64,000 bases of DNA. Origin: Rhynochetos jubatus. Taxonomy: Eukaryota; Chordata; Aves; Eurypygiformes; Rhynochetidae. The stretch is taken from positions 13,900,404-13,964,403 of the forward strand of contig CM050657.1 in NCBI GenBank assembly GCA_027574665.1. Direction: 5' to 3'. Of this stretch, positions 1 to 64,000 are shown one piece after another. The notes beneath the pieces are model-generated. The model made no database searches. It was not told the origin of the DNA and was given only the letters and a program-made list of their open reading frames with translations. Numbering within the stretch: position 1 is the first letter of the stretch; every line of letters starts with the position of its first letter. Both the position numbers and the translations under genes were made by a program.

Positions 1-2790
1 TGCGCGGTTTCCGGCCCCGGCCCCTGTGGGTTCTGGCTAGGAAAGGTGGGGAGGCAGCAATGTGGGTGCAGTGTTTTGCTGCTCTTGACAGGCCTTTGCA
101 ATGCCAGCTAGCCCTGGAGCTGTGGGCTTTCTGGTTCTCCGGACGCTAACCCTAAGCGTAACCCTAATTGTTAGGGTGCGCGTTTTCCGGCCCAGGCCCC
201 TCTGGGTTCTGGCTAGGAAAGGTGGGGAGGCAGCAATGTGGGTGCAGTGTTTTGCTGCTCTTGGCAGGCCTTTGCAATGCCAGCTAGCCCTGGAGCTGTG
301 GGCTTTCTGGTTCTCCGGACGCTAACCCTAGGCGTAACCCTAATATTTGACGTGCGCGGTTTCCGGCCCCGGCCCCCCTGGGTTCTGGCTAATAAAGGTG
401 GGGAGGCAGCAATGTGGGTGCAGTGTTTTGCTGCTCTTGGCAGGCCTTTGCAATGCCAGCTAGCCCTGGAGCTGTGGGCTTTCTGGTTCTCCAGACACTA
501 ACCCTAAGCGTAACCCTAATTGTTAGGGTGCGCGGTTTCCGTCCCCGGCCCCTGTGGGTTCTGGCTAGGGAAGGTGGGGAGGCAGCAATGTGGGTGCAGT
601 GTTTTGCTGCTCTTGGCAGGCCTTTGCAATGCCAGCTAGCCCTGGAGCTGTGGGCTTTGTGGTTCTCCGGACGCTAACCCTAGGCGTAACCCTAATATTT
701 GACGTGCGCGGTTTCCGTCCCCGGCCCCCCTGGGTTCTGGCTAGGGCAGGTGGGGAGGCAGCAATGTGGGTGCAGTGTTTTGCTCCTCTTGGCAGGCCTT
801 TGCAATGCCAGCTAGCCCTGGAGCTGTGGGCTTTCTGGTTCTCCGGACGCTAACCCTAAGCGTAACCCTAATTGTTAGGGTGCGCGGTTTCCAGCCCCAG
901 CCCCCCTGGGTTCTGGCTAGGAAAGGTGGGGAGGCAGCAATGTGGGTGCAGTGTTTTGCTCCTCTTGGCAGGCCTTTGCAATGCCAGCTAGCCCTGGAGC
1001 TGTGGGCTTTCTGGTTCTCCGGACGCTAACCCTAGGCGTAACCCTAATATTTGACGTGCGCGGTTTCCGGCCCCGGCCCCCCTGGGTTCTGGCTAATAAA
1101 GGTGGGGAGGCAGCAATGTGGGTGCAGTGTTTTGCTCCTCTTGGCAGGCCTTTGCAATGCCAGCTAGCCCTGGAGCTGTGGGCTTTCTGGTTCTCCGGAC
1201 GCTAACCCTAAGCGTAACCCTAATTGTTAGGGTGCGCGGTTTCCATCCCCGGCCCCTGTGGGTTCTGGCTAGGGAAGGTGGGGAGGCAGCAATGTGGGTG
1301 CAGTGTTTTGCTCCTCTTGGCAGGCCTTTGCAATGCCAGCTAGCCCTGGAGCTGTGGGCTTTCTGGTTCTCCGGACGCTAACCCTAAGCGTAACCCTAAT
1401 TGTTAGGGTGCGCGGTTTCCGTCCCCGGCCCCTGTGGGTTCTGGCTAGGGAAGGTGGGGAGGCAGCAATGTGGGTGCAGTGTTTTGCTCCTCTTGGCAGG
1501 CCTTTGCAATGCCAGCTAGCCCTGGAGCTGTGGGCTTTCTGGTTCTCCGGACGCTAACCCTAAGCGTAACCCTAGTTGTTCGGGTGCGCGGTTTCCGGCC
1601 CCGGCCCCTGTGGGTTCTGGCTAGGGAAGGTGGGGAGGCAGCAATGTGGGTGCAGTGTTTTGCTCCTCTTGGCAGGCCTTTGCAATGCCAGCTAGCCCTG
1701 GAGCTGTGGGCTTTCTGGTTCTCCGGACGCTAACCCTAAGCGTAACCCTAATTGTTAGGGTGCGCGGTTTCCGGCCCCGGCCCCTCTGGGTTCTGGCTAA
1801 TAAAGGTGGGGAGGCAGCAATGTGGGTGCAGTGTTTTGCTCCTCTTGGCAGGCCTTTGCAATGCCAGCTAGCCCTGGAGCTGTGGGCTTTCTGGTTCTCC
1901 GGACGCTAACCCTAAGCGTAACCCTAATTGTTAGGGTGCGCGGTTTCCGTCCCCGGCCCCTGTGGGTTCTGGCTAGGGAAGGTGGGGAGGCAGCAATGTG
2001 GGTGCAGTGTTTTGCTCCTCTTGGCAGGCCTTTGCAATGCCAGCTAGCCCTGGAGCTGTGGGCTTTCTGGTTCTCCGGACGCTAACCCTAGGCGTAACCC
2101 TAATTGTTAGGGTGCGCGGTTTCCGGCCCCGGCCCCCCTGGGTTCTGGCTAATAAAGGTGGGGAGGCAGCAATGTGGGTGCAGTGTTTTGCTCCTTTTGG
2201 CAGGCCTTTGCAATGCCAGCTAGCCCTGGAGCTGTGGGCTTTCTGGTTCTCCGGACGCTAACCCTAGGCGTAACCCTAATTGTTAGGGTGCGCGGTTTCC
2301 GGCCCCGGCCCCTCTGGGTTCTGGCTAGGAAAGGTGGGGAGGCAGCAATGTGGGTGCAGTGTTTTGCTCCTCTTGGCAGGCCTTTGCAATGCCAGCTAGC
2401 CCTGGAGCTGTGGGCTTTCTGGTTCTCCGGACGCTAACCCTAAGCGTAACCCTAATATTTGACGTGCGCGGTTTCCGGCCCCGGCCCCCCTGGGTTCTGG
2501 CTAGGGCAGGTGGGGAGGCAGCAATGTGGGTGCAGTGTTTTGCTGCTCTTGGCAGGCCTTTGCAATGCCAGCTAGCCCTGGAGCTGTGGGCTTTGTGGTT
2601 CTCCGGACGCTAACCCTAAGCGTAACCCTAATTGTTAGGGTGCGCGGTTTCCGTCCCCGGCCCCTGTGGGTTCTGGCTAGGGAAGGTGGGGAGGCAGCAA
2701 TGTGGGTGCAGTGTTTTGCTCCTCTTGGCAGGCCTTTGCAATGCCAGCTAGCCCTGGAGCTGTGGGCTTTCTGGTTCTCCGGACGCTAAC

Positions 2791-4820
2791 CCTAAGCGTA
2801 ACCCTAATATATGACGTGCGCGGTTTCCGGCCCCGGCCCCTCTGCTTTCTGGCTAGGAAAGGTGGGGAGGCAGCAATGTGGGTGCAGTGTTTTGCTCCTC
2901 TTGGCAGGCCTTTGCAATGCCAGCTAGCCCTGGAGCTGTGGGCTTTCTGGTTCTCCGGACGCTAACCCTAAGCTTAACCCTAATATTTGACGTGCGCGGT
3001 TTCCGGCCCCGGCCCCTCTGGGTTCTGGCTAGGAAAGGTGGGGCGGCAGCAATGTGAGTGCAGTGTTTTGCTCCTCTTGGCAGGCCTTTGCAATGCCAGC
3101 TAGCCCTGGAGCTGTGGGCTTTCTGGTTCTCCGGACGCTAACCCTAACCCTAACCCTAATAGTTAGAGTGCGCGGTTTCCGGCCCTGGCCCCTCTGGGTT
3201 CTGGCTAGGGAAGGTGGGGAGGCAGCAATGTGGGTGCAGTGTTTTGCTCCTCTTGGCAGGCCTTTGCAATGCCAGCTAGCCCTGGAGCTGTGGGCTTTCT
3301 GGTTCTCCGGACGCTAACCCTAAGCGTAACCCTAATATTTGACGTGCGCGGTTTCCGTCCCCGGCCCCTCTGGGTTCTGGCTAATAAAGCTGGGGAGGCA
3401 GCAATGTGGGTGCAGTGTTTTGCTCCTCTTGGCAGGCCTTTGCAATGCCAGCTAGCCCTGGAGCTGTGGGCTTTCTGGTTCTCCGGACGTTAACCCTAAG
3501 CGTAACCCTAATTGTTAGGGTGCGCGGTTTCTGGCCCCGGCCCCTGTGGGTTCTGGCTAAAAAAAGTGGGGAGGCAGCAATGTGGGTGCAGTGTTTTGCT
3601 CCTCTTGGCAGGCCTTTGCAATGCCAGCTAGCCCTGGAGCTGTGGGCTTTCTGGTTCTCCGGACGCTAACCCTAAGCGTAACCCTAATATTTGACGTGCG
3701 CGGTTTCCGGCCCCGGCCCCCCTGGGTTCTGGCTAGGGCAGGTGGGGAGGCAGCAATGTGGGTGCAGTGTTTTGCTGCTCTTGGCAGGCCTTTGCAATGC
3801 CAGCTAGCCCTGGAGCTGTGGGCTTTCTGGTTCTCCGGACGCTAACCCTAAGCGTAACCCTAATTGTTAGGGTGCGCGGTTTCCGTCCCCGGCCCCTGTG
3901 GGTTCTGGCTAGGGCAGGTGGGGAGGCAGCAATGTGGGTGCAGTGTTTTGCTGCTCTTGGCAGGCCTTTGCAATGCCAGCTAGCCCTGGAGCTGTGGGCT
4001 TTCTGGTTCTCCGGACGCTAACCCTAAGCGTAACCCTAATATTTGACGTGCGCGGTTTCCGGCCGCGGCCCCTGTGGGTTCTGGCTAGGGAAGGTGGGGA
4101 GGCAGCAATGTGGGTGCAGTATTTTGCTTCTCTTGGCAGGCCTTTGCAATGCCAGCTAGCCCTGGAGCTGTGGGCTTTCTGGTTCTCCGGACGCTAACCC
4201 TAAGCGTAACCCTAATATATGACGTGCGCGGTTTCCGGCCCTGGCCCCTCTGGTTTCTGGCTAGGAAAGGTGGGGAGGCAGCAATGTGGGTGCAGTGTTT
4301 TGCTCCTCTTGGCAGGCCTTTGCAATGCCAGCTAGCCCTGGAGCTGTGGGCTTTCTGGTTCTCCGGACGCTAACCCTAAGCTTAACCCTAATATTTGACG
4401 TGCGCGGTTTCCGGCCCCGGCCCCTCTGGGTTCTGGCTAGGAAAGGTGGGGCGGCAGCAATGTGAGTGCAGTGTTTTGCTCCTCTTGGCAGGCCTTTGCA
4501 ATGCCAGCTAGCCCTGGAGCTGTGGGCTTTCTGGTTCTCCGGACGCTAACCCTAACCCTAACCCTAATAGTTAGAGTGCGCGGTTTCCGGCCCTGGCCCC
4601 TCTGGGTTCTGGCTAGGGAAGGTGGGGAGGCAGCAATGTGGGTGCAGTGTTTTGCTCCTCTTGGCAGGCCTTTGCAATGCCAGCTAGCCCTGGAGCTGTG
4701 GGCTTTCTGGTTCTCCGGACGCTAACCCTAAGCGTAACCCTAATATTTGACGTGCGCGGTTTCCGTCCCCGGCCCCTCTGGGTTCTGGCTAATAAAGCTG
4801 GGGAGGCAGCAATGTGGGTG
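2791..4820. repeat. 8-unit higher-order repeat (1,408-bp spacing), two copies
   Basis: Rare variants recur in the same order 1,408 bp (8 units) apart. ATATATGACG lies near 2808 and 4216. A unique AAGCTT within the telomeric core lies at 2970 and 4378. GCGGCAGCAATGTGAGTG has its GTG-equivalent at 3054 and 4462. (TAACCC)3 followed by AATAGTTAGAGTG lies at 3139 and 4547, and AATAAAGCTGG near 3384 and 4792. The copies are not fully identical: CTCTGCTTTCTGG in the first faces CTCTGGTTTCTGG in the second. This makes the duplication older than those in the array centre. Confidence 0.85.
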
Positions 4821-22322: not shown

Positions 22323-23026
22323 TAACCCTAAGCGTAACCCTAATATTTGACGTGCGCGGTTTCCGGCCCCGGCCCCTGTGGGTTCTGGCTAATAAAGGTG
22401 GGGAGGCAGCAATGTGGGTGCAGTGTTTTGCTCCTCTTGGCAGGCCTTTGCAATGCCAGCTAGCCCTGGAGCTGTGGGCTTTCTGGTTCTCCGGACGCTA
22501 ACCCTAAGCGTAACCCTAATTGTTAGGGTGCGCGGTTTCCGTCCCCGGCCCCTCTGGGTTCTGGCTAGGGAAGGTGGGGAGGCAGCAATGTGGGTGCAGT
22601 GTTTTGCTCCTCTTGGCAGGCCTTTGCAATGCCAGCTAGCCCTGGAGCTGTGGGCTTTGTGGTTCTCCGGACGCTAACCCTAAGCGTAACCCTAATTGTT
22701 AGCGTCCGCGATTTCCGGCCCCGGCCCCTGTGGGTTCTGGCTAATACAGGTGGGGAGGCAGCAATGTGGGTGCAGTGTTTTGCTCCTCTTGGCAGGCCTT
22801 TGCAATGCCAGCTAGCCCTGGAGCTGTGGGCTTTCTGGTTCTCCGGACGCTAACCCTAAGCGTAACCCTAATTGTTAGGGTGCGCGGTTTCCGTCCCCGG
22901 CCCCTCTGGGTTCTGGCTAGGGAAGGTGGGGAGGCAGCAATGTGGGTGCAGTGTTTTGCTCCTCTTGGCAGGCCTTTGCAATGCCAGCTAGCCCTGGAGC
23001 TGTGGGCTTTGTGGTTCTCCGGACGC
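22323..23026. repeat. Four-unit (704-bp) insertion/deletion between large repeats
   Basis: These four units are present in the first large repeat and have no counterpart in the second. They contain an ATTTGACG/AATAAA unit, an AGGGAAGG unit, a GTTAGCGTCCGCGATTT/AATACA unit (start 22,675) and another AGGGAAGG unit. The last two form one 352-bp dimer of the kind repeated just downstream (23,027), so slippage by dimers could explain part of the difference. Confidence 0.7.
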
Positions 23027-24609
23027 TAACCCTAAGCGTAACCCTAATTGTTAGCGTCCGCGATTTCCGGCCCCGGCCCCTGTGGGTTCTGGCTAATACA
23101 GGTGGGGAGGCAGCAATGTGGGTGCAGTGTTTTGCTCCTCTTGGCAGGCCTTTGCAATGCCAGCTAGCCCTGGAGCTGTGGGCTTTCTGGTTCTCCGGAC
23201 GCTAACCCTAAGCGTAACCCTAATTGTTAGGGTGCGCGGTTTCCGGCCCCGGCCCCTGTGGGTTCTGGCTAGGGAAGGTGGGGAGGCAGCAATGTGGGTG
23301 CAGTGTTTTGCTCCTCTTGGCAGGCCTTTGCAATGCCAGCTAGCCCTGGAGCTGTGGGCTTTCTGGTTCTCCGGACGCTAACCCTAAGCGTAACCCTAAT
23401 TGTTAGGGTGCGCGGTTTCCGGCCCCGGCCCCTCTGGGTTCTGGCTAGGGAAGGTGGGGAGGCAGCAATGTGGGTGCAGTGTTTTGCTCCTCTTGGCAGG
23501 CCTTTGCAATGCCAGCTAGCCCTGGAGCTGTGGGCTTTCTGGTTCTCCGGACGCTAACCCTAAGCGTAACCCTAATTGTTAGGGTGCGCGGTTTCCGGCC
23601 CCGGCCCCTCTGCGTTCTGGCTAGGGAAGGTGGGGAGGCAGCAATGTGGGTGCAGTGTTTTGCTCCTCTTGGCAGGCCTTTGCAATGCCAGCTAGCCCTG
23701 GAGCTGTGGGCTTTCTGGTTCTCCGGACGCTAACCCTAAGCGTAACCCTAATTGTTAGCGTCCGCGGTTTCCGGCCCCGGCCCCTCTGGGTTCTGGCTAA
23801 TACAGGTGGGGAGGCAGCAATGTGGGTGCAGTGTTTTGCTCCTCTTGGCAGGCCTTTGCAAGGCCAGCTAGCCCTGGAGCTGTGGGCTTTGTGGTTCTCC
23901 GGACGCTAACCCTAAGCGTAACCCTAATTGTTCGGGTGCGCGGTTTCCGGCCCCGGCCCCTGTGGGTTCTGGCTAGGGAAGGTGGGGAGGCAGCAATGTG
24001 GGTGCAGTGTTTTGCTCCTCTTGGCAGGCCTTTGCAATGCCAGCTAGCCCTGGAGCTGTGGGCTTTCTGGTTCTCCGGACGCTAACCCTAAGCGTAACCC
24101 TAATCGTTAGGGTGCGCGGTTTCCGACCCGGCCCCTCTGGGTTCTGGCTAGGGAAGGTGGGGAGGCAGCAATGTGGGTGCAGTGTTTTGCTCCTCTTGGC
24201 AGGCCTTTGCAATGCCAGCTAGCCCTGGAGCTGTGGGCTTTGTGGTTCTCCGGACGCTAACCCTAAGCGTAACCCTAATTGTTAGGGTGCGCGGTTTCCG
24301 GCCCCGGCCCCTCTGCGTTCTGGCTAGGGAAGGTGGGGAGGCAGCAATGTGGGTGCAGTGTTTTGCTCCTCTTGGCAGGCCTTTGCAATGCCAGCTAGCC
24401 CTGGAGCTGTGGGCTTTCTGGTTCTCCGGACGCTAACCCTAAGCGTAACCCTAATTGTTAGGGTGCGCGGTTTCCGGCCCCGGCCCCTCTGGGTTCTGGC
24501 TAGGGAAGGTGGGGAGGCAGCAATGTGGGTGCAGTGTTTTGCTCCTCTTGGCAGGCCTTTGCAATGCCAGCTAGCCCTGGAGCTGTGGGCTTTGTGGTTC
24601 TCCGGACGC

Positions 24610-25489
24610 TAACCCTAAGCGTAACCCTAATTGTTAGCGTCCGCGATTTCCGGCCCCGGCCCCTGTGGGTTCTGGCTAATACAGGTGGGGAGGCAGCAAT
24701 GTGGGTGCAGTGTTTTGCTCCTCTTGGCAGGCCTTTGCAATGCCAGCTAGCCCTGGAGCTGTGGGCTTTCTGGTTCTCCGGACGCTAACCCTAAGCGTAA
24801 CCCTAATTGTTAGGGTGCGCGGTTTCCGTCCCCGGCCCCTCTGGGTTCTGGCTAGGGAAGGTGGGGAGGCAGCAATGTGGGTGCAGTGTTTTGCTCCTCT
24901 TGGCAGGCCTTTGCAATGCCAGCTAGCCCTGGAGCTGTGGGCTTTGTGGTTCTCCGGACGCTAACCCTAAGCGTAACCCTAATTGTTAGCGTCCGCGATT
25001 TCCGGCCCCGGCCCCTGTGGGTTCTGGCTAATACAGGTGGGGAGGCAGCAATGTGGGTGCAGTGTTTTGCTCCTCTTGGCAGGCCTTTGCAATGCCAGCT
25101 AGCCCTGGAGCTGTGGGCTTTCTGGTTCTCCGGACGCTAACCCTAAGCGTAACCCTAATTGTTAGGGTGCGCGGTTTCCGTCCCCGGCCCCTCTGGGTTC
25201 TGGCTAGGGAAGGTGGGGAGGCAGCAATGTGGGTGCAGTGTTTTGCTCCTCTTGGCAGGCCTTTGCAATGCCAGCTAGCCCTGGAGCTGTGGGCTTTCTG
25301 GTTCTCCGGACGCTAACCCTAAGCGTAACCCTAATTGTTAGCGTCCGCGATTTCCGGCCCCGGCCCCTGTGGGTTCTGGCTAATACAGGTGGGGAGGCAG
25401 CAATGTGGGTGCAGTGTTTTGCTCCTCTTGGCAGGCCTTTGCAATGCCAGCTAGCCCTGGAGCTGTGGGCTTTCTGGTTCTCCGGACGC
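24610..25489. repeat. 352-bp dimer run (GTTAGCGTCCGCGATTT/AATACA alternating with AGGGAAGG)
   Basis: Units starting at 24,610, 24,962 and 25,314 carry GTTAGCGTCCGCGATTT with CCCTGTGGG and AATACAGG. The units between carry the inverted-telomere cassette with CCGTCCCCGG and AGGGAAGG. This gives a local 2-unit period of 352 bp. The run is copied at 29,185-30,064 (unit starts 29,185, 29,537 and 29,889) as part of the larger duplication. A shorter run begins at 22,675 and 23,027. Confidence 0.85.
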
Positions 25490-25598
25490 TAACCCTAAGC
25501 GTAACCCTAATTGTTAGGGTGCGCGGTTTCCGTCCCCGGCCCCTGTGGGTTCTGGCTAGGGAAGGTGGGGAGGCAGCAATGTGGGTGCAGTGTTTTGC

Positions 25599-28500
25599 TG
25601 CTCTTGGCAGGCCTTTGCAATGCCAGCTAGCCCTGGAACTGTGGGCTTTCTGGTTCTCCGGACGCTAACCCTAAGCGTAACCCTAATTGTTAGGGTGCGC
25701 GGTTTCCGGCCCCGGCCCCTGTGGGTTCTGGCTAATAAAGGTGGGGAGGCAGCAATGTGGGTGCAGTGTTTTGCTCCTCTTGGCAGGCCTTTGCAATGCC
25801 AGCTAGCCCTGGAGCTGTGGGCTTTCTGGTTCTCCGGACGCTAACCCTAAGCGTAACCCTAATATTTGACGTGCGCGGTTTCCGGCCCCGGCCCCTGTGG
25901 GTTCTGGCTAATAAAGGTGGGGAGGCAGCAATGTGGGTGCAGTGTTTTGCTCCTCTTGGCAGGCCTTTGCAATGCCAGCTAGCCCTGGAGCTGTGGGCTT
26001 TGTGGTTCTCCGGACGCTAACCCTAAGCGTAACCCTAATATTTGACGTGCGCGGTTTCCGGCCCCGGCCCCCCTGGGTTCTGGCTAATAAAGGTGGGGAG
26101 GCAGCAATGTGGGTGCAGTGTTTTGCTCCTCTTGGCAGGCCTTTGCAATGCCAGCTAGCCCTGGAGCTGTGGGCTTTCTGGTTCTCCGGACGCTAACCCT
26201 AGGCGTAACCCTAATTGTTAGGGTGCGCGGTTTCCGGCCCCGGCCCCTCTGCGTTCTGGCTAGGGAAGGTGGGGAGGCAGCAATGTGGGTGCAGTGTTTT
26301 GCTCCTCTTGGCAGGCCTTTGCAATGCCAGCTAGCCCTGGAGCTGTGGGCTTTCTGGTTCTCCGGACGCTAACCCTAAGCGTAACCCTAATTGTTAGGGT
26401 GCGCGGTTTCCAGCCCCAGCCCCTCTGGGTTCTGGCTAGGGAAGGTGGGGAGGCAGCAATGTGGGTGCAGTGTTTTGCTCCTCTTGGCAGGCCTTTGCAA
26501 TGCCAGCTAGCCCTGGAGCTGTGGGCTTTCTGGTTCTCCGGACGCTAACCCTAACCCTAACCCTAATATTTGACGTGCGCGGTTTCCGGCCCCGGCCCCT
26601 GTGGGTTCTGGCTAGGGAAGGTGGGGAGGCAGCAATGTGGGTGCAGTGTTTTGCTCCTCTTGGCAGGCCTTTGCAATGCCAGCTAGCCCTGGAGCTGTGG
26701 GCTTTCTGGTTCTCCGGACGCTAACCCTAAGCGTAACCCTAATTTTTGACGTGCGCGGTTTCCGGTCCCGGCCCCTCTGGGTTCTGGCTAATAAAGGTGG
26801 GGAGGCAGCAATGTGGGTGCAGTGTTTTGCTCCTCTTGGCAGGCCTTTGCAATGCCAGCTAGCCCTGGAGCTGTGGGCTTTCTGGTTCTCCGGACGCTAA
26901 CCCTAAGCGTAACCCTAATATTTGACATGCGCGGTTTCCGGCCCCGGCCCCCCTGGGTTCTGGCTAGGGCTGGTGGGGAGGCAGCAATGTGGGTGCAGTG
27001 TTTTGCTGCTCTTGGCAGGCCTTTGCAATGCCAGCTAGCCCTGGAGCTGTGGGCTTTGTGGTTCTCCGGACGCTAACCCTAAGCGTAACCCTAATATTTG
27101 ACGTGCGCGGTTTCCGGCCCCGGCCCCCCTGGGTTCTGGCTTGGAAAGGTGGGGAGGCAGCAATGTGGGTGCAGTGTTTTGCTCCTCTTGGCAGGCCTTT
27201 GCAATGCCAGCTAGCCCTGGAGCTGTGGGCTTTCTGGTTCTCCGGACGCTAACCCTAAGCGTAACCCTAATATTTGACATGCGCGGTTTCCGGCCCCGGC
27301 CCCCCTGGGTTCTGGCTAATAAAGGTGGGGAGGCAGCAATGAGGGTGCAGTGTTTTGCTCCTCTTGGCAGGCCTTTGCAATGCCAGCTAGCCCTGGAGCT
27401 GTGGGCTTTCTGGTTCTCCGGACGCTAACCCTAAGCGTAACCCTAATTGTTAGGGTGCGCGGTTTCCGGCCCCGGCCCCTGTGGGTTCTGGCTAATAAAG
27501 GTGGGGAGGCAGCAATGTGGGTGCAGTGTTTTGCTCCTTTTGGCAGGCCTTTGCAATGCCAGCTAGCCCTGGAGCTGTGGGCTTTCTGGTTCTCCGGACG
27601 CTAACCCTAAGCGTAACCCTAATTGTTAGCGTCCGCGATTTCCGGCCCCGGCCCCTGTGGGTTCTGGCTAATACAGGTGGGGAGGCAGCAATGTGGGTGC
27701 AGTGTTTTGCTCCTCTTGGCAGGCCTTTGCAATGCCAGCTAGCCCTGGAGCTGTGGGCTTTCTGGTTCTCCGGACGCTAACCCTAAGCGTAACCCTAATT
27801 GTTAGGGTGCGCGGTTTCCGGCCCCGGCCCCTGTGGGTTCTGGCTAGGGAAGGTGGGGAGGCAGCAATGTGGGTGCAGTGTTTTGCTCCTCTTGGCAGGC
27901 CTTTGCAATGCCAGCTAGCCCTGGAGCTGTGGGCTTTCTGGTTCTCCGGACGCTAACCCTAAGCGTAACCCTAATTGTTAGGGTGCGCGGTTTCCGGCCC
28001 CGGCCCCTCTGGGTTCTGGCTAGGGAAGGTGGGGAGGCAGCAATGTGGGTGCAGTGTTTTGCTCCTCTTGGCAGGCCTTTGCAATGCCAGCTAGCCCTGG
28101 AGCTGTGGGCTTTCTGGTTCTCCGGACGCTAACCCTAAGCGTAACCCTAATTGTTAGGGTGCGCGGTTTCCGGCCCCGGCCCCTCTGCGTTCTGGCTAGG
28201 GAAGGTGGGGAGGCAGCAATGTGGGTGCAGTGTTTTGCTCCTCTTGGCAGGCCTTTGCAATGCCAGCTAGCCCTGGAGCTGTGGGCTTTCTGGTTCTCCG
28301 GACGCTAACCCTAAGCGTAACCCTAATTGTTAGCGTCCGCGGTTTCCGGCCCCGGCCCCTCTGGGTTCTGGCTAATACAGGTGGGGAGGCAGCAATGTGG
28401 GTGCAGTGTTTTGCTCCTCTTGGCAGGCCTTTGCAAGGCCAGCTAGCCCTGGAGCTGTGGGCTTTGTGGTTCTCCGGACGCTAACCCTAAGCGTAACCCT

Positions 28501-33100: not shown

Positions 33101-33699
33101 CGGCCCCCCTGGGTTCTGGCTAATAAAGGTGGGGAGGCAGCAATGTGGGTGCAGTGTTTTGCTCCTCTTGGCAGGCCTTTGCAATGCCAGCTAGCCCTGG
33201 AGCTGTGGGCTTTCTGGTTCTCCGGACGCTAACCCTAAGCGTAACCCTAATTGTTAGGGTGCGCGGTTTCCGTCCCCGGCCCCTCTGGGTTCTGGCTAGG
33301 GAAGGTGGGGAGGCAGCAATGTGGGTGCAGTGTTTTGCTCCTCTTGGCAGGCCTTTGCAATGCCAGCTAGCCCTGGAGCTGTGGGCTTTGTGGTTCTCCG
33401 GACGCTAACCCTAAGCGTAACCCTAATATTTGACGTGCGCGGTTTCCGGCCCCGGCCCCTCTGGATTCTGGCTAATAAAGGTGGGGATGCAGCAATGTGG
33501 GTGCAGTGTTTTGCTCCTCTTGGCAGGCCTTTGCAATGCCAGCTAGCCCTGGAGCTGTGGGCTTTCTGGTTCTCCGGACGCTAACCCTAAGCGTAACCCT
33601 AATTGTTAGGGTGCGCGGTTTCCGGCCCTGGCCCCTGTAAGTTCTGGCTAGGGAAGGTGGGGAGGCAGCAATGTGGGTGCAGTGTTTTGCTGCTCTTGG

Positions 33700-36600
33700 C
33701 AGGCCTTTGCAATGCCAGCTAGCCCTGGAGCTGTGGGCTTTCTGGTTCTCCGGACGCTAACCCTAACCCTAACCCTAATATTTGACGTGCGCGGTTTCCG
33801 GCCCCGGCCCCTGTGGGTTCTGGCTAGGGAAGGTGGGGAGGCAGCAATGTGGGTGCAGTGTTTTGCTCCTCTTGGCAGGCCTTTGCAATGCCAGCTAGCC
33901 CTGGAGCTGTGGGCTTTGTGGTTCTCCGGACGCTAACCCTAAGCGTAACCCTAATTGTTAGCGTCCGCGGTTTCCGGCCCCGGCCCCTCTGGGTTCTGGC
34001 TAATACAGGTGGGGAGGCAGCAATGTGGGTGCAGTGTTTTGCTCCTCTTGGCAGGCCTTTGCAATGCCAGCTAGCCCTGGAGCTGTGGGCTTTCTGGTTC
34101 TCCGGACGCTAACCCTAAGCGTAACCCTAATATTTGACGTGCGCGGTTTCCGGCCCCGGCCCCTCTGGATTCTGGCTAATAAAGGTGGGGATGCAGCAAT
34201 GTGGGTGCAGTGTTTTGCTCCTCTTGGCAGGCCTTTGCAAGGCCAGCTAGCCCTGGAGCTGTGGGCTTTCTGGTTCTCCGGACGCTAACCCTAAGCGTAA
34301 CCCTAATTGTTCGGGTGCGCGGTTTCCGGCCCCGGCCCCTCTGGGTTCTGGCTAGGGAAGGTGGGGAGGCAGCAATGTGGGTGCAGTGTTTTGCTCCTCT
34401 TGGCAGGCCTTTGCAATGCCAGCTAGCCCTGGAGCTGTGGGCTTTCTGGTTCTCCGGACGCTAACCCTAAGCGTAACCCTAATTGTTAGGGTGCGCGGTT
34501 TCCGACCCGGCCCCTCTGGGTTCTGGCTAATAAAGGTGGGGAGGCAGCAATGTGGGTGCAGTGTTTTGCTCCTCTTGGCAGGCCTTTGCAATGCCAGCTA
34601 GCCCTGGAGCTGTGGGCTTTCTGGTTCTCCGGACGCTAACCCTAAGCGTAACCCTAATTGTTAGGGTGCGCGGTTTCCGGCCCCGGCCCCTCTGGGTTCT
34701 GGCTAATAAAGGTGGGGAGGCAGCAATGTGTGTGCAGTGTTTTGCTCCTCTTGGCAGGCCTTTGCAATGCCAGCTAGCCCTGGAGCTGTGGGCTTTGTGG
34801 TTCTCCGGACGCTAACCCTAAGCGTAACCCTAATTGTTAGCGTCCGCGGTTTCCGGCCCCGGCCCCTCTGGGTTCTGGCTAGGGAAGGTGGGGAGGCAGC
34901 AATGTGGGTGCAGTGTTTTGCTCCTCTTGGCAGGCCTTTGCAATGCCAGCTAGCCCTGGAGCTGTGGGCTTTCTGGTTCTCCGGACGCTAACCCTAAGCG
35001 TAACCCTAATATTTGACGTGCGCGGTTTCCGGCCCCGGCCCCTGTGGGTTCTGGCTAATAAAGGTGGGGAGGCAGCAATGTGGGTGCAGTGTTTTGCTCC
35101 TCTTGGCAGGCCTTTGCAATGCCAGCTAGCCCTGGAGCTGTGGGCTTTCTGGTTCTCCGGACGCTAACCCTAAGCGTAACCCTAATATTTGACGTGCGCG
35201 GTTTCCGGCCCCGGCCCCCCTGGGTTCTGGCTAATAAAGGTGGGGAGGCAGCAATGTGGGTGCAGTGTTTTGCTCCTCTTGGCAGGCCTTTGCAATGCCA
35301 GCTAGCCCTGGAGCTGTGGGCTTTCTGGTTCTCCGGACGCTAACCCTAAGCGTAACCCTAATTGTTAGGGTGCGCGGTTTCCGTCCCCGGCCCCTCTGGG
35401 TTCTGGCTAGGGAAGGTGGGGAGGCAGCAATGTGGGTGCAGTGTTTTGCTCCTCTTGGCAGGCCTTTGCAATGCCAGCTAGCCCTGGAGCTGTGGGCTTT
35501 CTGGTTCTCCGGACGCTAACCCTAGGCGTAACCCTAATTGTTAGGGTGCGCGGTTTCCGGCCCCGGCCCCTGTGGGTTCTGGCTAATACAGGTGGGGAGG
35601 CAGCAATGTGGGTGCAGTGTTTTGCTCCTCTTGGCAGGCCTTTGCAATGCCAGCTAGCCCTGGAGCTGTGGGCTTTCTGGTTCTCCGGACGCTAACCCTA
35701 AGCGTAACCCTAATTGTTAGGGTGCGCGGTTTCCAGCCCCAGCCCCTCTGGGTTCTGGCTAATAAAGGTGGGGAGGCAGCAATGTGGGTGCAGTGTTTTG
35801 CTGCTCTTGGCAGGCCTTTGCAATGCCAGCTAGCCCTGGAGCTGTGGGCTTTCTGGTTCTCCGGACGCTAACCCTAGGCGTAACCCTAATTGTTAGGGTG
35901 CGCGGTTTCCGGCCCCGGCCCCTGTGGGTTCTGGCTAATACAGGTGGGGAGGCAGCAATGTGGGTGCAGTGTTTTGCTCCTCTTGGCAGGCCTTTGCAAT
36001 GCCAGCTAGCCCTGGAGCTGTGGGCTTTCTGGTTCTCCGGACGCTAACCCTAAGCGTAACCCTAATTGTTAGGGTGCGCGGTTTCCAGCCCCAGCCCCTC
36101 TGGGTTCTGGCTAATAAAGGTGGGGAGGCAGCAATGTGGGTGCAGTGTTTTGCTGCTCTTGGCAGGCCTTTGCAATGCCAGCTAGCCCTGGAGCTGTGGG
36201 CTTTCTGGTTCTCCGGACGCTAACCCTAGGCGTAACCCTAATTGTTAGGGTGCGCGGTTTCCGGCCCCGGCCCCTGTGGGTTCTGGCTAATACAGGTGGG
36301 GAGGCAGCAATGTGGGTGCAGTGTTTTGCTCCTCTTGGCAGGCCTTTGCAATGCCAGCTAGCCCTGGAGCTGTGGGCTTTCTGGTTCTCCGGACGCTAAC
36401 CCTAAGCGTAACCCTAATATTTGACGTGCGCGGTTTCCGGCCCCGGCCCCCCTGGGTTCTGGCTAATAAAGGTGGGGAGGCAGCAATGTGGGTGCAGTGT
36501 TTTGCTGCTCTTGGCAGGCCTTTGCAATGCCAGCTAGCCCTGGAGCTGTGGGCTTTCTGGTTCTCCGGACGCTAACCCTAACCCTAACCCTAATATTTGA

Positions 36601-36950
36601 CGTGCGCGGTTTCCGGCCCCGGCCCCTGTGGGTTCTGGCTAGGGAAGGTGGGGAGGCAGCAATGTGGGTGCAGTGTTTTGCTCCTCTTGGCAGGCCTTTG
36701 CAATGCCAGCTAGCCCTGGAGCTGTGGGCTTTCTGGTTCTCCGGACGCTAACCCTAAGCGTAACCCTAATATTTGACGTGCGCGGTTTCCGGTCCCGGCC
36801 CCTCTGGGTTCTGGCTAATAAAGGTGGGGAGGCAGCAATGTGGGTGCAGTGTTTTGCTCCTCTTGGCAGGCCTTTGCAATGCCAGCTAGCCCTGGAGCTG
36901 TGGGCTTTCTGGTTCTCCGGACGCTAACCCTAAGCGTAACCCTAATATTT
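33700..36950. repeat. Higher-order repeat block A1 (matches A2 at +7,742 bp)
   Basis: About 3.25 kb whose marker order recurs 7,742 bp downstream (44 units minus 2 bp) at about 41,442-44,692. Markers: (TAACCC)3 at 33,758 and 41,500; GCAAGGCCAG near 34,239 and 41,981; the 175-bp GACCCGG unit near 34,504 and 42,246; GCAATGTGTGTGC near 34,726 and 42,468; the 352-bp dimers from 35,517 and 43,259; CCGGTCCCGG near 36,791 and 44,533. The first 0.96 kb also recurs at +5,103 bp (38,803-39,763), so that part exists in three copies. Agreement stops where GACGTG in A1 faces GACATG in A2. Confidence 0.85.
35517..36396. repeat. 352-bp dimer run (CCTAGGCG units alternating with CCAGCCCCAGCC units)
   Basis: Units at 35,517, 35,869 and 36,221 have TAACCCTAGGCG and AATACAGG. 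Units at 35,693 and 36,045 have CCAGCCCCAGCCCC, AATAAAGG and GCTGCTC. The two types alternate two and a half times. The same run is found at 43,259-44,138, and a shorter one at 40,092-40,619, as parts of larger duplicated blocks. Confidence 0.88.
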
Positions 36951-38199
36951 GACGTGCGCGGTTTCCGGCCCCGGCCCCCCTGGGTTCTGGCTTGGAAAGG
37001 TGGGGAGGCAGCAATGTGGGTGCAGTGTTTTGCTCCTCTTGGCAGGCCTTTGCAATGCCAGCTAGCCCTGGAGCTGTGGGCTTTCTGGTTCTCCGGACGC
37101 TAACCCTAAGCGTAACCCTAATATTTGACATGCGCGGTTTCCGGCCCCGGCCCCCCTGGGTTCTGGCTAATAAAGGTGGGGAGGCAGCAATGAGGGTGCA
37201 GTGTTTTGCTCCTCTTGGCAGGCCTTTGCAATGCCAGCTAGCCCTGGAGCTGTGGGCTTTCTGGTTCTCCGGACGCTAACCCTAAGCGTAACCCTAATTG
37301 TTAGGGTGCGCGGTTTCCGTCCCCGGCCCCTCTGGGTTCTGGCTAGGGAAGGTGGGGAGGCAGCAATGTGGGTGCAGTGTTTTGCTCCTCTTGGCAGGCC
37401 TTTGCAATGCCAGCTAGCCCTGGAGCTGTGGGCTTTCTGGTTCTCCGGACGCTAACCCTAACCCTAACCCTAATATTTGACGTGCGCGGTTTCCGGCCCC
37501 GGCCCCTGTGGGTTCTGGCTAATAAAGGTGGGGAGGCAGCAATGTGGGTGCAGTGTTTTGCTGCTCTTGGCAGGCCTTTGCAATGCCAGCTAGCCCTGGA
37601 ACTGTGGGCTTTCTGGTTCTCCGGACGCTAACCCTAAGCGTAACCCTAATTGTTAGGGTGCGCGGTTTCCGGCCCCGGCCCCTGTGGGTTCTGGCTAATA
37701 AAGGTGGGGAGGCAGCAATGTGGGTGCAGTGTTTTGCTCCTCTTGGCAGGCCTTTGCAATGCCAGCTAGCCCTGGAGCTGTGGGCTTTCTGGTTCTCCGG
37801 ACGCTAACCCTAAGCGTAACCCTAATATTTGACGTGCGCGGTTTCCGGCCCCGGCCCCCCTGGGTTCTGGCTAATAAAGGTGGGGAGGCAGCAATGTGGG
37901 TGCAGTGTTTTGCTCCTCTTGGCAGGCCTTTGCAATGCCAGCTAGCCCTGGAGCTGTGGGCTTTGTGGTTCTCCGGACGCTAACCCTAAGCGTAACCCTA
38001 ATTGTTAGGGTGCGCGGTTTCCGTCCCCGGCCCCTCTGGGTTCTGGCTAGGGAAGGTGGGGAGGCAGCAATGTGGGTGCAGTGTTTTGCTCCTCTTGGCA
38101 GGCCTTTGCAATGCCAGCTAGCCCTGGAGCTGTGGGCTTTCTGGTTCTCCGGACGCTAACCCTAAGCGTAACCCTAATTGTTAGCGTCCGCGATTTCCG

Positions 38200-40838: not shown

Positions 40839-42399
40839 GCCCCGGCCCCTGTGGGTTCTGGCTAATACAGGTGGGGAGGCAGCAATGTGGGTGCAGTGTT
40901 TTGCTCCTCTTGGCAGGCCTTTGCAATGCCAGCTAGCCCTGGAGCTGTGGGCTTTCTGGTTCTCCGGACGCTAACCCTAAGCGTAACCCTAATTGTTAGG
41001 GTGCGCGGTTTCCAGCCCCAGCCCCTCTGGGTTCTGGCTAATAAAGGTGGGGAGGCAGCAATGTGGGTGCAGTGTTTTGCTCCTCTTGGCAGGCCTTTGC
41101 AATGCCAGCTAGCCCTGGAGCTGTGGGCTTTCTGGTTCTCCGGACGCTAACCCTAAGCGTAACCCTAATTGTTAGGGTGGTCGGTTTCCGGCCCCGGCCC
41201 CTCTGGGTTCTGGCTAGGGAAGGTGGGGAGGCAGCAATGTGGGTGCAGTGTTTTGCTGCTCTTGGCAGGCCTTTGCAATGCCAGCTAGCCCTGGAGCTGT
41301 GGGCTTTCTGGTTCTCCGGACGCTAACCCTAAGCGTAACCCTAATATTTGACGTGCGCGGTTTCCAGCCCCGGCCCCTCCGGATTCTGGCTAGGGACGGT
41401 GGGGAGGCAGCAATGTGGGTGCAGTGTTTTGCTCCTCTTGGCAGGCCTTTGCAATGCCAGCTAGCCCTGGAGCTGTGGGCTTTCTGGTTCTCCGGACGCT
41501 AACCCTAACCCTAACCCTAATATTTGACGTGCGCGGTTTCCGGCCCCGGCCCCTGTGGGTTCTGGCTAGGGAAGGTGGGGAGGCAGCAATGTGGGTGCAG
41601 TGTTTTGCTCCTCTTGGCAGGCCTTTGCAATGCCAGCTAGCCCTGGAGCTGTGGGCTTTGTGGTTCTCCGGACGCTAACCCTAAGCGTAACCCTAATTGT
41701 TAGCGTCCGCGGTTTCCGGCCCCGGCCCCTCTGGGTTCTGGCTAATACAGGTGGGGAGGCAGCAATGTGGGTGCAGTGTTTTGCTCCTCTTGGCAGGCCT
41801 TTGCAATGCCAGCTAGCCCTGGAGCTGTGGGCTTTCTGGTTCTCCGGACGCTAACCCTAAGCGTAACCCTAATATTTGACGTGCGCGGTTTCCGGCCCCG
41901 GCCCCTCTGGATTCTGGCTAATAAAGGTGGGGATGCAGCAATGTGGGTGCAGTGTTTTGCTCCTCTTGGCAGGCCTTTGCAAGGCCAGCTAGCCCTGGAG
42001 CTGTGGGCTTTCTGGTTCTCCGGACGCTAACCCTAAGCGTAACCCTAATTGTTCGGGTGCGCGGTTTCCGGCCCCGGCCCCTCTGGGTTCTGGCTAGGGA
42101 AGGTGGGGAGGCAGCAATGTGGGTGCAGTGTTTTGCTCCTCTTGGCAGGCCTTTGCAATGCCAGCTAGCCCTGGAGCTGTGGGCTTTCTGGTTCTCCGGA
42201 CGCTAACCCTAAGCGTAACCCTAATTGTTAGGGTGCGCGGTTTCCGACCCGGCCCCTCTGGGTTCTGGCTAATAAAGGTGGGGAGGCAGCAATGTGGGTG
42301 CAGTGTTTTGCTCCTCTTGGCAGGCCTTTGCAATGCCAGCTAGCCCTGGAGCTGTGGGCTTTCTGGTTCTCCGGACGCTAACCCTAAGCGTAACCCTAA
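40839..42399. repeat. 15-unit-spaced block B2
   Basis: Second copy of 38,200-39,760. Its right part also belongs to the larger block A2, so duplications at 2,639, 5,103 and 7,742 bp are nested, and 2,639 + 5,103 = 7,742. The simplest reading is one segment duplicated twice, with later exchange. Confidence 0.85.
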
Positions 42400-44692: not shown

Positions 44693-46595
44693 GACATGCG
44701 CGGTTTCCGGCCCCGGCCCCCCTGGGTTCTGGCTTGGAAAGGTGGGGAGGCAGCAATGAGGGTGCAGTGTTTTGCTCCTCTTGGCAGGCCTTTGCAATGC
44801 CAGCTAGCCCTGGAGCTGTGGGCTTTCTGGTTCTCCGGACGCTAACCCTAAGCGTAACCCTAATTGTTAGGGTGCGCGGTTTCCGGCCCCGGCCCCTGTG
44901 GGTTCTGGCTAATAAAGGTGGGGAGGCAGCAATGTGGGTGCAGTGTTTTGCTCCTTTTGGCAGGCCTTTGCAATGCCAGCTAGCCCTGGAGCTGTGGGCT
45001 TTCTGGTTCTCCGGACGCTAACCCTAAGCGTAACCCTAATATTTGACGTGCGCGGTTTCCGGCCCCGGCCCCTGTGGGTTCTGGCTAATAAAGGTGGGGA
45101 GGCAGCAATGTGGGTGCAGTGTTTTGCTCCTCTTGGCAGGCCTTTGCAATGCCAGCTAGCCCTGGAGCTGTGGGCTTTCTGGTTCTCCGGACGCTAACCC
45201 TAAGCGTAACCCTAATTGTTAGGGTGCGCGGTTTCCGTCCCCGGCCCCTCTGGGTTCTGGCTAGGGAAGGTGGGGAGGCAGCAATGTGGGTGCAGTGTTT
45301 TGCTCCTCTTGGCAGGCCTTTGCAATGCCAGCTAGCCCTGGAGCTGTGGGCTTTCTGGTTCTCCGGACGCTAACCCTAAGCGTAACCCTAATTGTTAGCG
45401 TCCGCGATTTCCGGCCCCGGCCCCTGTGGGTTCTGGCTAATACAGGTGGGGAGGCAGCAATGTGGGTGCAGTGTTTTGCTCCTCTTGGCAGGCCTTTGCA
45501 ATGCCAGCTAGCCCTGGAGCTGTGGGCTTTCTGGTTCTCCGGACGCTAACCCTAACCCTAACCCTAATATTTGACGTGCGCGGTTTCCGGCCCCGGCCCC
45601 TGTGGGTTCTGGCTAATAAAGGTGGGGAGGCAGCAATGTGGGTGCAGTGTTTTGCTGCTCTTGGCAGGCCTTTGCAATGCCAGCTAGCCCTGGAACTGTG
45701 GGCTTTCTGGTTCTCCGGACGCTAACCCTAAGCGTAACCCTAATTGTTAGGGTGCGCGGTTTCCGTCCCCGGCCCCTCTGGGTTCTGGCTAGGGAAGGTG
45801 GGGAGGCAGCAATGTGGGTGCAGTGTTTTGCTCCTCTTGGCAGGCCTTTGCAATGCCAGCTAGCCCTGGAGCTGTGGGCTTTCTGGTTCTCCGGACGCTA
45901 ACCCTAAGCGTAACCCTAATTGTTAGCGTCCGCGATTTCCGGCCCCGGCCCCTGTGGGTTCTGGCTAATACAGGTGGGGAGGCAGCAATGTGGGTGCAGT
46001 GTTTTGCTCCTCTTGGCAGGCCTTTGCAATGCCAGCTAGCCCTGGAGCTGTGGGCTTTCTGGTTCTCCGGACGCTAACCCTAAGCGTAACCCTAATTGTT
46101 AGGGTGCGCGGTTTCCAGCCCCAGCCCCTCTGGGTTCTGGCTAATAAAGGTGGGGAGGCAGCAATGTGGGTGCAGTGTTTTGCTCCTCTTGGCAGGCCTT
46201 TGCAATGCCAGCTAGCCCTGGAGCTGTGGGCTTTCTGGTTCTCCGGACGCTAACCCTAAGCGTAACCCTAATTGTTAGGGTGCGCGGTTTCCGTCCCCGG
46301 CCCCTCTGGGTTCTGGCTAGGGAAGGTGGGGAGGCAGCAATGTGGGTGCAGTGTTTTGCTGCTCTTGGCAGGCCTTTGCAATGCCAGCTAGCCCTGGAGC
46401 TGTGGGCTTTCTGGTTCTCCGGACGCTAACCCTAAGCGTAACCCTAATATTTGACGTGCGCGGTTTCCAGCCCCGGCCCCTCCGGATTCTGGCTAGGGAC
46501 GGTGGGGAGGCAGCAATGTGGGTGCAGTGTTTTGCTCCTCTTGGCAGGCCTTTGCAATGCCAGCTAGCCCTGGAGCTGTGGGCTTTCTGGTTCTC

Positions 46596-52054: not shown

Positions 52055-52236
52055 TAACCCTAAGCGTAACCCTAATTGTTAGGGTGCGCGGTTTCCAGAC
52101 CCCGCCCCCCTGGGTTCTGGCTAGGAAAGGTGGGGAGGCAGCAATGTGGGTGCAGTGTTTTGCTCCTCTTGGCAGGCCTTTGCAATGCCAGCTAGCCCTG
52201 GAGCTGTGGGCTTTCTGGTTCTCCTGACGCTGACGC
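52055..52236. repeat. 182-bp unit with GACGCT duplication
   Basis: The end of this unit reads CTCCTGACGCTGACGCTAACC. GACGCT is present twice, at 52,226-52,231 and 52,232-52,237, giving 6 extra bp. The next telomeric core starts at 52,237. It is the only 182-bp unit, and a simple slippage duplication next to the telomeric motif explains it. Confidence 0.92.
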
Positions 52237-55200
52237 TAACCCTAAGCGTAACCCTAATATTTGACGTGCGCGGTTTCCGGCCCCGGCCCCCCTGGGTTCT
52301 GGCTAGGGCAGGTGGGGAGGCAGCAATGTGGGTGCAGTGTTTTGCTGCTCTTGGCAGGCCTTTGCAATGCCAGCTAGCCCTGGAGCTGTGGGCTTTCTGG
52401 TTCTCCGGACGCTAACCCTAAGCGTAACCCTAATTGTTAGGGTGCGCGGTTTCCGGCCCCGGCCCCTCTGGGTTCTGGCTAATAAAGGTGGGGAGGCAGC
52501 AATGTGGGTGCAGTGTTTTGCTCCTTTTGGCAGGCCTTTGCAATGCCAGCTAGCCCTGGAGCTGTGGGCTTTCTGGTTCTCCGGACGCTAACCCTAAGCG
52601 TAACCCTAATTGTTAGGGTGCGCGGTTTCCGTCCCCGGCCCCTGTGGGTTCTGGCTAGGGAAGGTGGGGAGGCAGCAATGTGGGTGCAGTGTTTTGCTGC
52701 TCTTGGCAGGCCTTTGCAATGCCAGCTAGCCCTGGAGCTGTGGGCTTTCTGGTTCTCCGGACGCTAACCCTAAGCGTAACCCTAATTGTTAGGGTGCGCG
52801 GTTTCCGTCCCCGGCCCCTGTGGGTTCTGGCTAGGGAAGGTGGGGAGGCAGCAATGTGGGTGCAGTGTTTTGCTGCTCTTGGCAGGCCTTTGCAATGCCA
52901 GCTAGCCCTGGAGCTGTGGGCTTTCTGGTTCTCCGGACGCTAACCCTAAGCGTAACCCTAATATTTGACGTGCGCGGTTTCCGGCCGCGGCCCCTGTGTG
53001 TTCTGTCTAGGAAAGGTGGGGAGGCAGCAATGTGGGTGCAGTGTTTTGCTCCTCTTGGCAGGCCTTTGCAATGCCAGCTAGCCCTGGAGCTGTGGGCTTT
53101 CTGGTTCTCCGGACGCTAACCCTAGGCGTAACCCTAATATTTGACGTGCGCGGTTTCCGGCCCCGGCCCCCCTGGCTTCTGGCTAGGGCAGGTGGGGAGG
53201 CAGCAATGTGGGTGCAGTGTTTTGCTGCTCTTGGCAGGCCTTTGCAATGCCAGCTAGCCCTGGAGCTGTGGGCTTTCTGGTTCTCCGGACGCTAACCCTA
53301 AGCGTAACCCTAATTGTTAGGGTGCGCGGTTTCCGGCCCCGGCCCCTGTGGGTTCTGGCTAGGAAAGGTGGGGAGGCAGCAATGTGGGTGCAGTGTTTTG
53401 CTGGTCTTGGCAGGCCTTTGCAATGCCAGCTAGCCCTGGAGCTGTGGGCTTTCTGGTTCTCCGGACGCTAACCCTAAGCGTAACCCTAATTGTTAGGGTG
53501 CGTGGTTTCTGGCCCCGGCCCCTCTGGGTTCTGGCTAGGGAAGGTGGGGAGGCAGAAATGTGGGTGCAGTGTTTTGCTCCTCTTGGCAGGCCTTTGCAAT
53601 GACAGGTAGCCCTGGAGCTGTGGGCTTTCTGGTTCTCCGGACGCTAACCCTAAGCGTAACCCTAATATTTGACGTGCGCGGTTTCCGGCCCCGGCCCCTC
53701 TGTGTTCTGGCTAGGGAAGGTGGGGAGGCAGCAATGTGGGTGCAGTGTTTTGCTCCTCTTGGCAGGCCTTTGCAATGCCAGCTAGCCCTGGAGCTGTGGG
53801 CTTTCTGGTTCTCCGGACGCTAACCCTAAGCGTAACCCTAATTGTTAGGGTGTGCGGTTTCCGGCCCCGGCCCCTCTGGGTTCTGGCTTGGAAAGGTGGG
53901 GAGGCAGCAATGTGGGTGCAGTGTTTTGCTCCTCTTGGCAGGCCTTTGCAATGCCAGCTAGCCCTGGAGCTGTGGGCTTTCTGGTTCTCCGGACGCTAAC
54001 CCTAAGCGTAACCCTAATTGTTAGGGTGCGCGTTTTCCGGCCCCGGCCCATCTGGGTTCTGGCTAGGGAACGTGGGGAGGCAGCAATGTGGGTGCAGTGT
54101 TTTGCTCCTCTTGGCAGGCCTTTGCAATGCCAGCTAGCCCTGGAGCTGTGGGCTTTCTGGTTCTCCGGACGCTAACCCTAAGCGTAACCCTAATTGTTAG
54201 GGTGCGCGGTTTCCGGCCCCGGCCCCTCTGGGTTCTGGCTAGGGAAGGTGGGGAGGCAGCAATGTGGGTGCAGTGTTTTGCTCCTCTTGGCAGGCCTTTG
54301 CAATGCCAGCTAGCCCTGGAGCTGTGGGCTTTCTGGTTCTCCGGACGCTAACCCTAGGCGTAACCCTAATTGTTAGGGTGCGCGGTTTCCGGCCCCGGCC
54401 CCCCTGGGTTCTGGCTAATAAAGGTGGGGAGGCAGCAATGTGGGTGCAGTGTTTTGCTCCTTTTGGCAGGCCTTTGCAATGCCAGCTAGCCCTGGAGCTG
54501 TGGGCTTTCTGGTTCTCCGGACGCTAACCCTAAGCGTAACCCTAATATTTGACGTGCGCGGTTTCCGGCCCCGGCCCCTGTGGGTTCTGGCTAGGGAAGG
54601 TGGGGAGGCAGCAATGTGGGTGCAGTGTTTTGCTCCTCTTGGCAGGCCTTTGCAATGCCAGCTAGCCCTGGAGCTGTGGGCTTTCTGGTTCTCCGGACGC
54701 TAACCCTAAGCGTAACCCTAATTGTTAGGGTGCGCGGTTTCCGGCCCCGGCCCCCCTTGGTTCTGGCTAATAAAGGTGGGGAGGCAGCAATGTGGGTGCA
54801 GTGTTTTGCTCCTCTTGGCAGGCCTTTGCAATGCCAGCTAGCCCTGGAGCTGTGGGCTTTCTGGTTCTCCGGACGCTAACCCTAAGCGTAACCCTAATAT
54901 TTGACGCGCGCGGTTTCCGGCCCCGGCCCCTGTGGGTTCTGGCTAATAAAGGTGGGGAGGCAGCAATGTGGGTGCAGTGTTTTGCTCCTCTTGGCAGGCC
55001 TTTGCAATGCCAGCTAGCCCTGGAGCTGTGGGCTTTCTGGTTCTCCGGACGCTAACCCTAAGCGTAACCCTAATATTTAACGTGCGCGGTTTGCGTCCCT
55101 GGCCCCTGTGGGTTCTGGCTAATAAAGGTGGGGAGGGAGCAATGTGGGTGCAGTGTTTTGCTGCTCTTGGCAGGCCTTTGCAATGCCAGCTAGCCCTGGA

Positions 55201-63300: not shown

Positions 63301-63940
63301 GCTTTCTGGTTCTCCGGACGCTAACCCTAACCCTAACCCTAATATTTGACGTGCGCGGTTTCCGGCCCCGGCCCCTCTGGGTTCTGGCTAGGAAAGGTGG
63401 GGCGGCAGCAATGTGAGTGCAGTGTTTTGCTCCTCTTGGCAGGCCTTTGCAATGCCAGCTAGCCCTGGAGCTGTGGGCTTTCTGGTTCTCCGGATGCTAA
63501 CCCTAAGCGTAACCCTAAAATGTGACGTGCGCGGTTTCCGGCCTCGGCCCGTGTGGGTTCTGGCTAGGGAAGGTGGGGAGGCAGCAATGTGGGTGCAGTG
63601 TTTTGCTCCTCTTGGCAGGCCTTTGCAATGCCAGCTAGCCCTGGAGCTGTGGGCTTTCTGGTTCTCCGGACGCTAACCCTAAGCGTAACCCTAATAGTTA
63701 GGGTGGGCGGTTTACGGCCCCGGCCCCTGTGGGTTCTGGCTAATAAAGGTGGGGAGGCAGCAATGTGGGTGCAGTGTTTTGCTCCTCTTGGCAGGCCTTT
63801 GCAATGCCAGCTAGCCCTGGAGCTGTGGGCTTTCTGGTTCTCCGGACGCTAACCCTAAGCGTAACCCTAATATTTGACGTGTGCGGTTTCCAGCCCCGGC
63901 CCCTCCGGATTCTGGCTAATAAAGGTGGGGAGGCAGCAAT

Positions 63941-64000
63941 GTGGGTGCAGTGTTTTGCTCTTCTTGGCAGGCCTTTGCAATGCCAGCTAGCCACTTGAGC
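63941..64000. repeat. Last partial unit with divergent terminal bases
   Basis: The final partial unit follows the consensus except GCTCTTCTTGG for GCTCCTCTTGG and, at 63,991-64,000, CCACTTGAGC where CCCTGGAGCT is expected. This is best read as one inserted A plus a G-to-T change. Whether it marks the approach to the array edge or is only a variant unit cannot be decided from this window. Confidence 0.6.

Follow-up and report, generated by a model that had tools for sequence, protein, structure and literature searches.

Telomeric motifs in known centromeric satellites

Centromeric satellites that have a nucleosome-sized unit and carry telomeric motifs are a kind already known. The satellite described here has a 176-bp unit and fills a 64,000-nucleotide stretch of a bird genome, hereafter the window (C12:13900404-13964403; C-numbers denote contigs of the source genome, both chromosomes and smaller scaffolds, and L-numbers the DNA pieces read from them), and its sequence and position suggest that it probably belongs to the centromere, or to the immediately pericentromeric DNA, of a mid-sized chromosome. 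As we weigh the comparisons, the nearest tested precedent is the chicken, for which tandem arrays of 0.2-0.8 Mb are described at acrocentric centromeres, with embedded (TTAGGG)n centromere cores on seven chromosomes (PMC9974502; this and the other papers are cited from the passages that deal with these repeats). If the arrays described here are centromeric, the two systems are alike in that tandem arrays occupy acrocentric centromeres, telomeric sequence forms part of the centromere and a repeat is common to many smaller chromosomes, whereas the chicken CNM unit measures 41 bp, with higher-order repeats, against 176 bp here, and chicken (TTAGGG)n is a separate tract rather than a block inside each unit (PMC9974502).

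Other vertebrates offer partial likenesses. The monk parakeet has a centromeric satellite, supported by fluorescence in situ hybridization (FISH), with a similar unit length of 191 bp; it is likened here by description, and the passages on it mention no telomeric block (PMC8854603). TleSat01 of the pale-breasted thrush is likewise placed by FISH at the centromeres of all chromosomes, but its unit is 1,220 bp long, and the ten families given for the thrush include no 176-bp unit, the nearest being 145 bp (PMC11375038). In hamster, marsupials and the frog Boana faber, which belong to other vertebrate classes, telomeric repeats have been reported or proposed to be part of centromeric satellites, mostly on FISH evidence; in birds, according to the same review, telomere FISH usually gives just terminal signals (PMC9693754). 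Mouse major and minor satellites form head-to-tail arrays with polarity on telocentric and Robertsonian chromosomes, and the paper on mouse and mole vole notes that satellites of this kind may facilitate fusion (PMC7230836). We claim no sequence relation to these mouse repeats. The mouse units are also not known to contain a telomeric block.

True owls (Strigidae) reportedly carry a 174-bp tandem satellite, said to have been described by Yamada and colleagues in 2004 in Chromosoma 112:277-287, that is centromeric on both macro- and microchromosomes. If the host of the window were an owl, that repeat may be a candidate for the same family, a likeness of description and not of sequence that lies in the unit length (174 versus 176 bp) and the large bird genome. 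It would differ in its reported presence on macrochromosomes too, as no arrays were seen here on the largest contigs, C1-C7. In the open PMC literature, six short sequence words of the family were absent from all 5.39 million papers, and work on bird, owl and songbird satellites, satellite polarity and CENP-A named no satellite matching the 176-bp family; the exact family is unmatched there and possibly already known.

The window is one array with a telomere-like block in each unit

Tandem Repeats Finder returned the window, positions 1..64000 on the + strand, as a single row: one array of period 176 with 363.7 copies and 95% matches. A 29-bp anchor occurs 364 times with up to 5 substitutions, its 363 spacings being 176 bp in 344 cases, 175 bp in 17 and 178 and 182 bp once each, and no reverse-strand anchor was found in the 64 kb with up to 6 substitutions. 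These counts bear out the initial annotation, made from the letters alone, which had described an uninterrupted 64-kb satellite with 364 anchors in one orientation. Head-to-tail arrangement and a unit above 100 bp place the array within satellite DNA; 'megasatellite', the term first applied to it, is unsuited to a 176-bp unit. Mean identity of the units to their consensus is 96.6%, and sites for NheI (GCTAGC) and StuI (AGGCCT) number 363 each.

The motif TAACCC occurs 748 times in the window, against a mean of 46.7 and a largest count of 63 in 100 dinucleotide-preserving shuffles. Two copies are present in 329 units, three in 28 and one in 6, so the earlier statement that every unit holds two or three is right for 357 of 363 units and wrong for six. 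The telomere-like part is a fixed 24-bp block in each 176-bp unit, the remaining 152 bp being mostly non-telomeric, and 'built on telomeric hexamers' was therefore too strong a wording. In the complete unit at 89..264 (+ strand, register CAGGCC...CTTGG), the block lies at 144..167 and reads CGCTAA CCCTAA GCGTAA CCCTAA, a decayed run of four hexamers. We call this form type A; its block aligns with (CCCTAA)3CCCTAG in the consensus of a related form from C11, type B, which is 84.7-85.2% identical to type A overall.

Across the family, units are mostly 170-176 bp long; each joins a core of some 150 bp to a block containing two to four telomeric hexamers. Unit length shifts in 6-bp steps together with this block. 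In the piece read from C11, the three 170-bp units have longest hexamer runs of 3, 2 and 3, and six of the seven 176-bp units reach 4; in all eight 170-bp type A units read from C8 and C12 the block is one hexamer shorter. Because unit length moves with the block, the simplest reading is that the family carried the block from the outset and that point changes and 6-bp slips have eroded it in type A.

The array is interior to its chromosome

The source genome comprises 1,331,379,947 bases in 148 contigs, whose sizes resemble those of macro- and microchromosomes. The keratin family PF02422 occurs in birds and reptiles. At least 150 matches to this Pfam family (Keratin) were found in the genome (150 of 197 candidates scored), compared with 0 in 14 control genomes. 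These matches and the contig sizes identify the host as a bird.

Short-piece probing puts the left boundary of this array on C12 at 12,297,150-12,300,000 and its right boundary at 14,098,150-14,106,000 of 31,633,907, giving an array of about 1.80 Mb (about 12.30 to 14.10 Mb), of which the window is a portion. All array pieces share one orientation, and the probes beyond both edges are non-satellite. The array is thus 12.3 Mb away from one end of its 31.63-Mb chromosome and 17.5 Mb from the other. A subtelomeric satellite, which the telomeric hexamers in each unit and the arrays at the assembled end of C19-C23 and C28 might suggest, is hard to reconcile with this position and with the first 10 kb of C8, C12 and C17 (partly N in one case), where no type A array is present; we regard it as extremely improbable. 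Unless the scaffold is wrong, it is refuted for the C12 array on the terms of the initial annotation itself, which had named signal away from chromosome ends as the observation that would count against a subtelomeric origin. Its broader proposal, that a satellite bearing telomere motifs matters for chromosome ends or centromeres, survives in the centromeric version, on position, size and family distribution, and fails in the subtelomeric one.

The probable placement of the window in putative centromeric or immediately pericentromeric satellite follows from the position, size and single orientation of the array, its homogeneity between chromosomes and an acrocentric/submetacentric pattern across the genome. 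The array would then be the CENP-A domain or its flank, and would form heterochromatin.

One satellite family on at least 18 chromosomes

Arrays of the family are present on at least 18 chromosomes, type A on C8, C12, C17 and C18 and types B or D on 14 more. The distribution comes from word sampling and short probes and not from a full scan, and edges outside C8, C12, C17 and C18 are the span of matches or probes. With two mismatches allowed, the type A anchor occurs 17,112 times forward and 23,237 times in reverse genome-wide, about 7.1 Mb at 176 bp each. Reverse copies are largely explained (about 22,900-23,000) by the arrays on C8 (about 25.87-28.25 Mb, about 2.38 Mb long) and C17 (about 14.29-15.93 Mb, about 1.65 Mb). 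The forward array on C18 lies between 8.60 and 9.10 Mb and is 0.16-0.50 Mb long; together with C12 it explains at most about 13,100 forward copies, which leaves some 4,000 or more type A-like copies unplaced. Confinement of type A to C8, C12 and C17, where all 37 matches of one sample fell, is ruled out by the C18 array. Mean unit identity between C8, C12 and C17 is 0.937-0.955, against 0.944-0.964 within single pieces (702 units), and 16 of 422 distinct 176-bp units are common to more than one of these chromosomes.

Types B and D are about 76-89% identical to type A. A type B word with up to 3 mismatches has 100,715 copies genome-wide, and type B arrays occur on C11, C13, C14, C15, C16, C19, C20, C21, C22, C23, C24 and C27, with three word matches on C28. 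Type D shares about 80-86% identity with B and 75-82% with A; it is outermost on C20-C23 and also present on C25 and C27. Some arrays are layered, with D on both sides of B on C21, C24 and probably C28 (L148, L151-L154, L157, L159, L163, L169, L171-L173, L202, L205). Arrays of types B and D lie in the interior of the larger chromosomes and of C24, C25 and C27, and at an assembled end of C19-C23 and C28, the pattern that submetacentric and acrocentric centromeres, respectively, would give. The interior arrays of eight chromosomes (C8 and C12-C18) lie at a similar relative place, with a short-arm fraction of 0.31-0.41. Old copies, single or in short arrays and with roughly 73-90% identity to A or B, are embedded in other DNA on C1, C2, C3, C4, C6, C7 and C20, and family word matches also occur outside the array on C8.

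Fifteen of these 18 chromosomes showed one array region in the samples, apart from the short old copies on C8 and C20. C11, C19 and C22 have two array regions each, which rules out one array per chromosome as a rule. On C11 (L070/L129/L130 and L069) and C22 (L142 and L144) the two arrays share one polarity, with non-satellite probes between them. Several observations weigh against a centromeric role. The paired regions on C11, C19 and C22 cannot all be centromere. On C1-C7 the samples held no family arrays and only short old copies; complete word-match lists likewise gave no family matches on C26 and C29-C35, absences that are weakly shown because word sampling missed the array at the start of C19. 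The window has no fixed higher-order repeat, unlike chicken CNM, since identity by unit lag is flat (0.949-0.955 for lags 1-40, with a best value of 0.955 among lags 1-119). Finally, the CENP-B box consensus TTCGNNNNANNCGGG has no occurrence in the 64 kb at up to 1 mismatch and seven at up to 2, all on the - strand.

The paired arrays also bear on a different reading of the window, as a heterochromatic block outside the centromere (an interstitial C-band) built from a satellite that centromeres also carry, for example the remnant of a fusion or inversion. With two arrays each on C11, C19 and C22, some arrays are not active centromeres, and telomeric motifs can mark old fusions (PMC9693754). 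Such a block is nevertheless an unlikely account of the C12 array, given the single array region that the samples showed on the other 15 of 18 chromosomes (bar the short old copies) and a homogeneous length of 1.8 Mb that is too large for a short fusion scar.

Satellites are hard to assemble, and the contigs C19, C21, C22 and C23 end inside arrays, which could indicate a collapsed or misplaced array, or a contaminant. The window units vary, with 207 of 363 distinct, and old diverged copies of the family sit within other DNA on C1-C4, C6, C7 and C20; an assembly artefact is accordingly very unlikely. A search of plasmids with 400 bases of the array gave no match, a scan of prokaryote genomes for an array 22-mer gave none, as expected, and an Rfam search on 4 kb of the array found nothing. 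Six-frame translation of flanking pieces likewise yielded nothing that bears on the placement of the array.

The presence of a single satellite family on at least 18 chromosomes of this bird has a practical side. Because the sampled units carry telomeric hexamers, TTAGGG FISH could misread these sites as interstitial telomeres and wrongly suggest fusions.

Arrays tend to point towards the nearer chromosome end

Of 21 arrays on 18 chromosomes (C8, C11-C25, C27 and C28), 20 have their TTAGGG strand directed at whichever chromosome end is closer. TAACCC lies on the + strand where the nearer end is to the left and on the - strand where it is to the right, so that the arrays have the same polarity as the telomere on that side; at the start of C13 the + strand does read CCCTAA (L080). 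Counted by chromosome, with C19 as a failure, 17 of 18 conform (two-sided P = 1.4e-4). The rule was formulated after nine fitting chromosomes, and of ten tests settled afterwards (C14, C16 and C21 by length; C18, C23, C24, C25, C27 and C28; and the C19 start) nine fit (one-sided P = 0.011). Dispersed old copies conform in 6 of 15 cases (Fisher's exact test against 17/18, P = 0.0015). All these tests overstate independence, because the chromosomes share ancestry. For C21, C22 and C23 the short arm is assumed to lie beyond the contig, since the contig ends inside the array. C36 and the scaffolds C55, C122, C125, C128 and C144, whose chromosome ends are unknown, were excluded from the counts. A diverged piece of C36, 81.5% identical to type B, would have fitted; judged by their own ends, C122 would fit and C125 (2.35 Mb, matches at 1.89-2.30 on the + strand) would not.

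The exception is the start of C19, a type B array on the - strand that runs from position 1 to at least 100,200 and is absent at 300,000 (L187-L190), and it rules out a polarity rule without exception. The other C19 array, at 20.53-20.61 Mb (L155, L156), conforms. Both are on the same strand, and an error in scaffold order, if there is one, would make them two parts of a single array, a point that favours the assembly artefact discounted above.

A centromeric family with this tendency may be kept and spread through unequal exchange and exchange between non-homologous centromeres. Exchange between non-homologous short arms would keep the arrays alike and tend to preserve polarity, and opposite polarity on one-armed chromosomes would, we argue, favour fusion. 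On two-armed chromosomes either polarity yields one-centromere products, and there the tendency might rather mean one-armed ancestry without pericentric inversion, since such an inversion on a one-armed chromosome would break it. The tendency, at 17 of 18 chromosomes, is a checkable constraint on how the satellite spreads and on the change from one-armed to two-armed chromosomes. A bolder proposal, which we rate as unlikely, is that the telomeric block has a function in the centromere unit. Copies would have come from telomere-adjacent sequence at a time when these chromosomes were one-armed and would have passed chiefly from short arm to short arm without change of polarity, keeping their polarity relative to the short-arm telomere though the centromere now lies 7-14 Mb inside; the CCCTAA block, perfect in type B, would aid CENP-A chromatin or the binding of shelterin-like proteins, a role that (TTAGGG)n may have at chicken centromere cores.

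Recent block duplication within the array

Long exact repeats within the window show homogenization of the array through block duplication. The longest, of 3,261 bp, pairs 33693..36953 with 41435-44695, and a second, of 2,588 bp, pairs 23012..25599 with 27587-30174 (both + strand); shuffling the unit order 20 times gave longest exact repeats of 348-525 bp. Repeats so far above the shuffled values point to recent block duplication at varying distances, a mark of unequal exchange.

Further features of the units and flanking DNA

On the + strand, a 6-bp inverted repeat, CCCTAATTGTTAGGG, occupies 162..176 in the unit described above, and TTAGGG is found in 176 of the 363 window units. Folding of the telomeric block gave z scores of -1.6 to 1.2 (-1.6 on the + strand), with no strong structure. 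The sole 182-bp unit, at 52173..52354 (+ strand), has a 6-bp duplication, of GACGCT, where the telomeric block is bordered. More than a third of units (134-136 of 363) have TAATATTTGACG in place of TAATTGTTAGGG after the block, as a linked set of letters.

Near the left boundary of the array on C12, 10 of 53 units in the piece L009 are shortened to 167-168 bp. The same piece holds about 600 bp of other DNA within the array (L009:70-680), perhaps a long terminal repeat. A non-satellite stretch among the satellite matches at 8.915 Mb of C27 (L170) is perhaps a mobile-element insertion. The first 10 kb of C12 and of C8 (L016 and L018) have closely similar long open frames, likely a shared subterminal segment. 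On C15, two divergent open frames of the keratin family lie at 15281444-15283709, about 67 kb from the first array match. Other tandem-looking repeats are CCAAGTCCAGGAGAAATT-like on C36 (L165, L179), CATCCGGGAGAATCTCAAGAGCAGG-like on C25, to each side of its array (L203, L204), and GGCGGGGCTTAAGGGGCGAGG-like at the start of C20 (L149).

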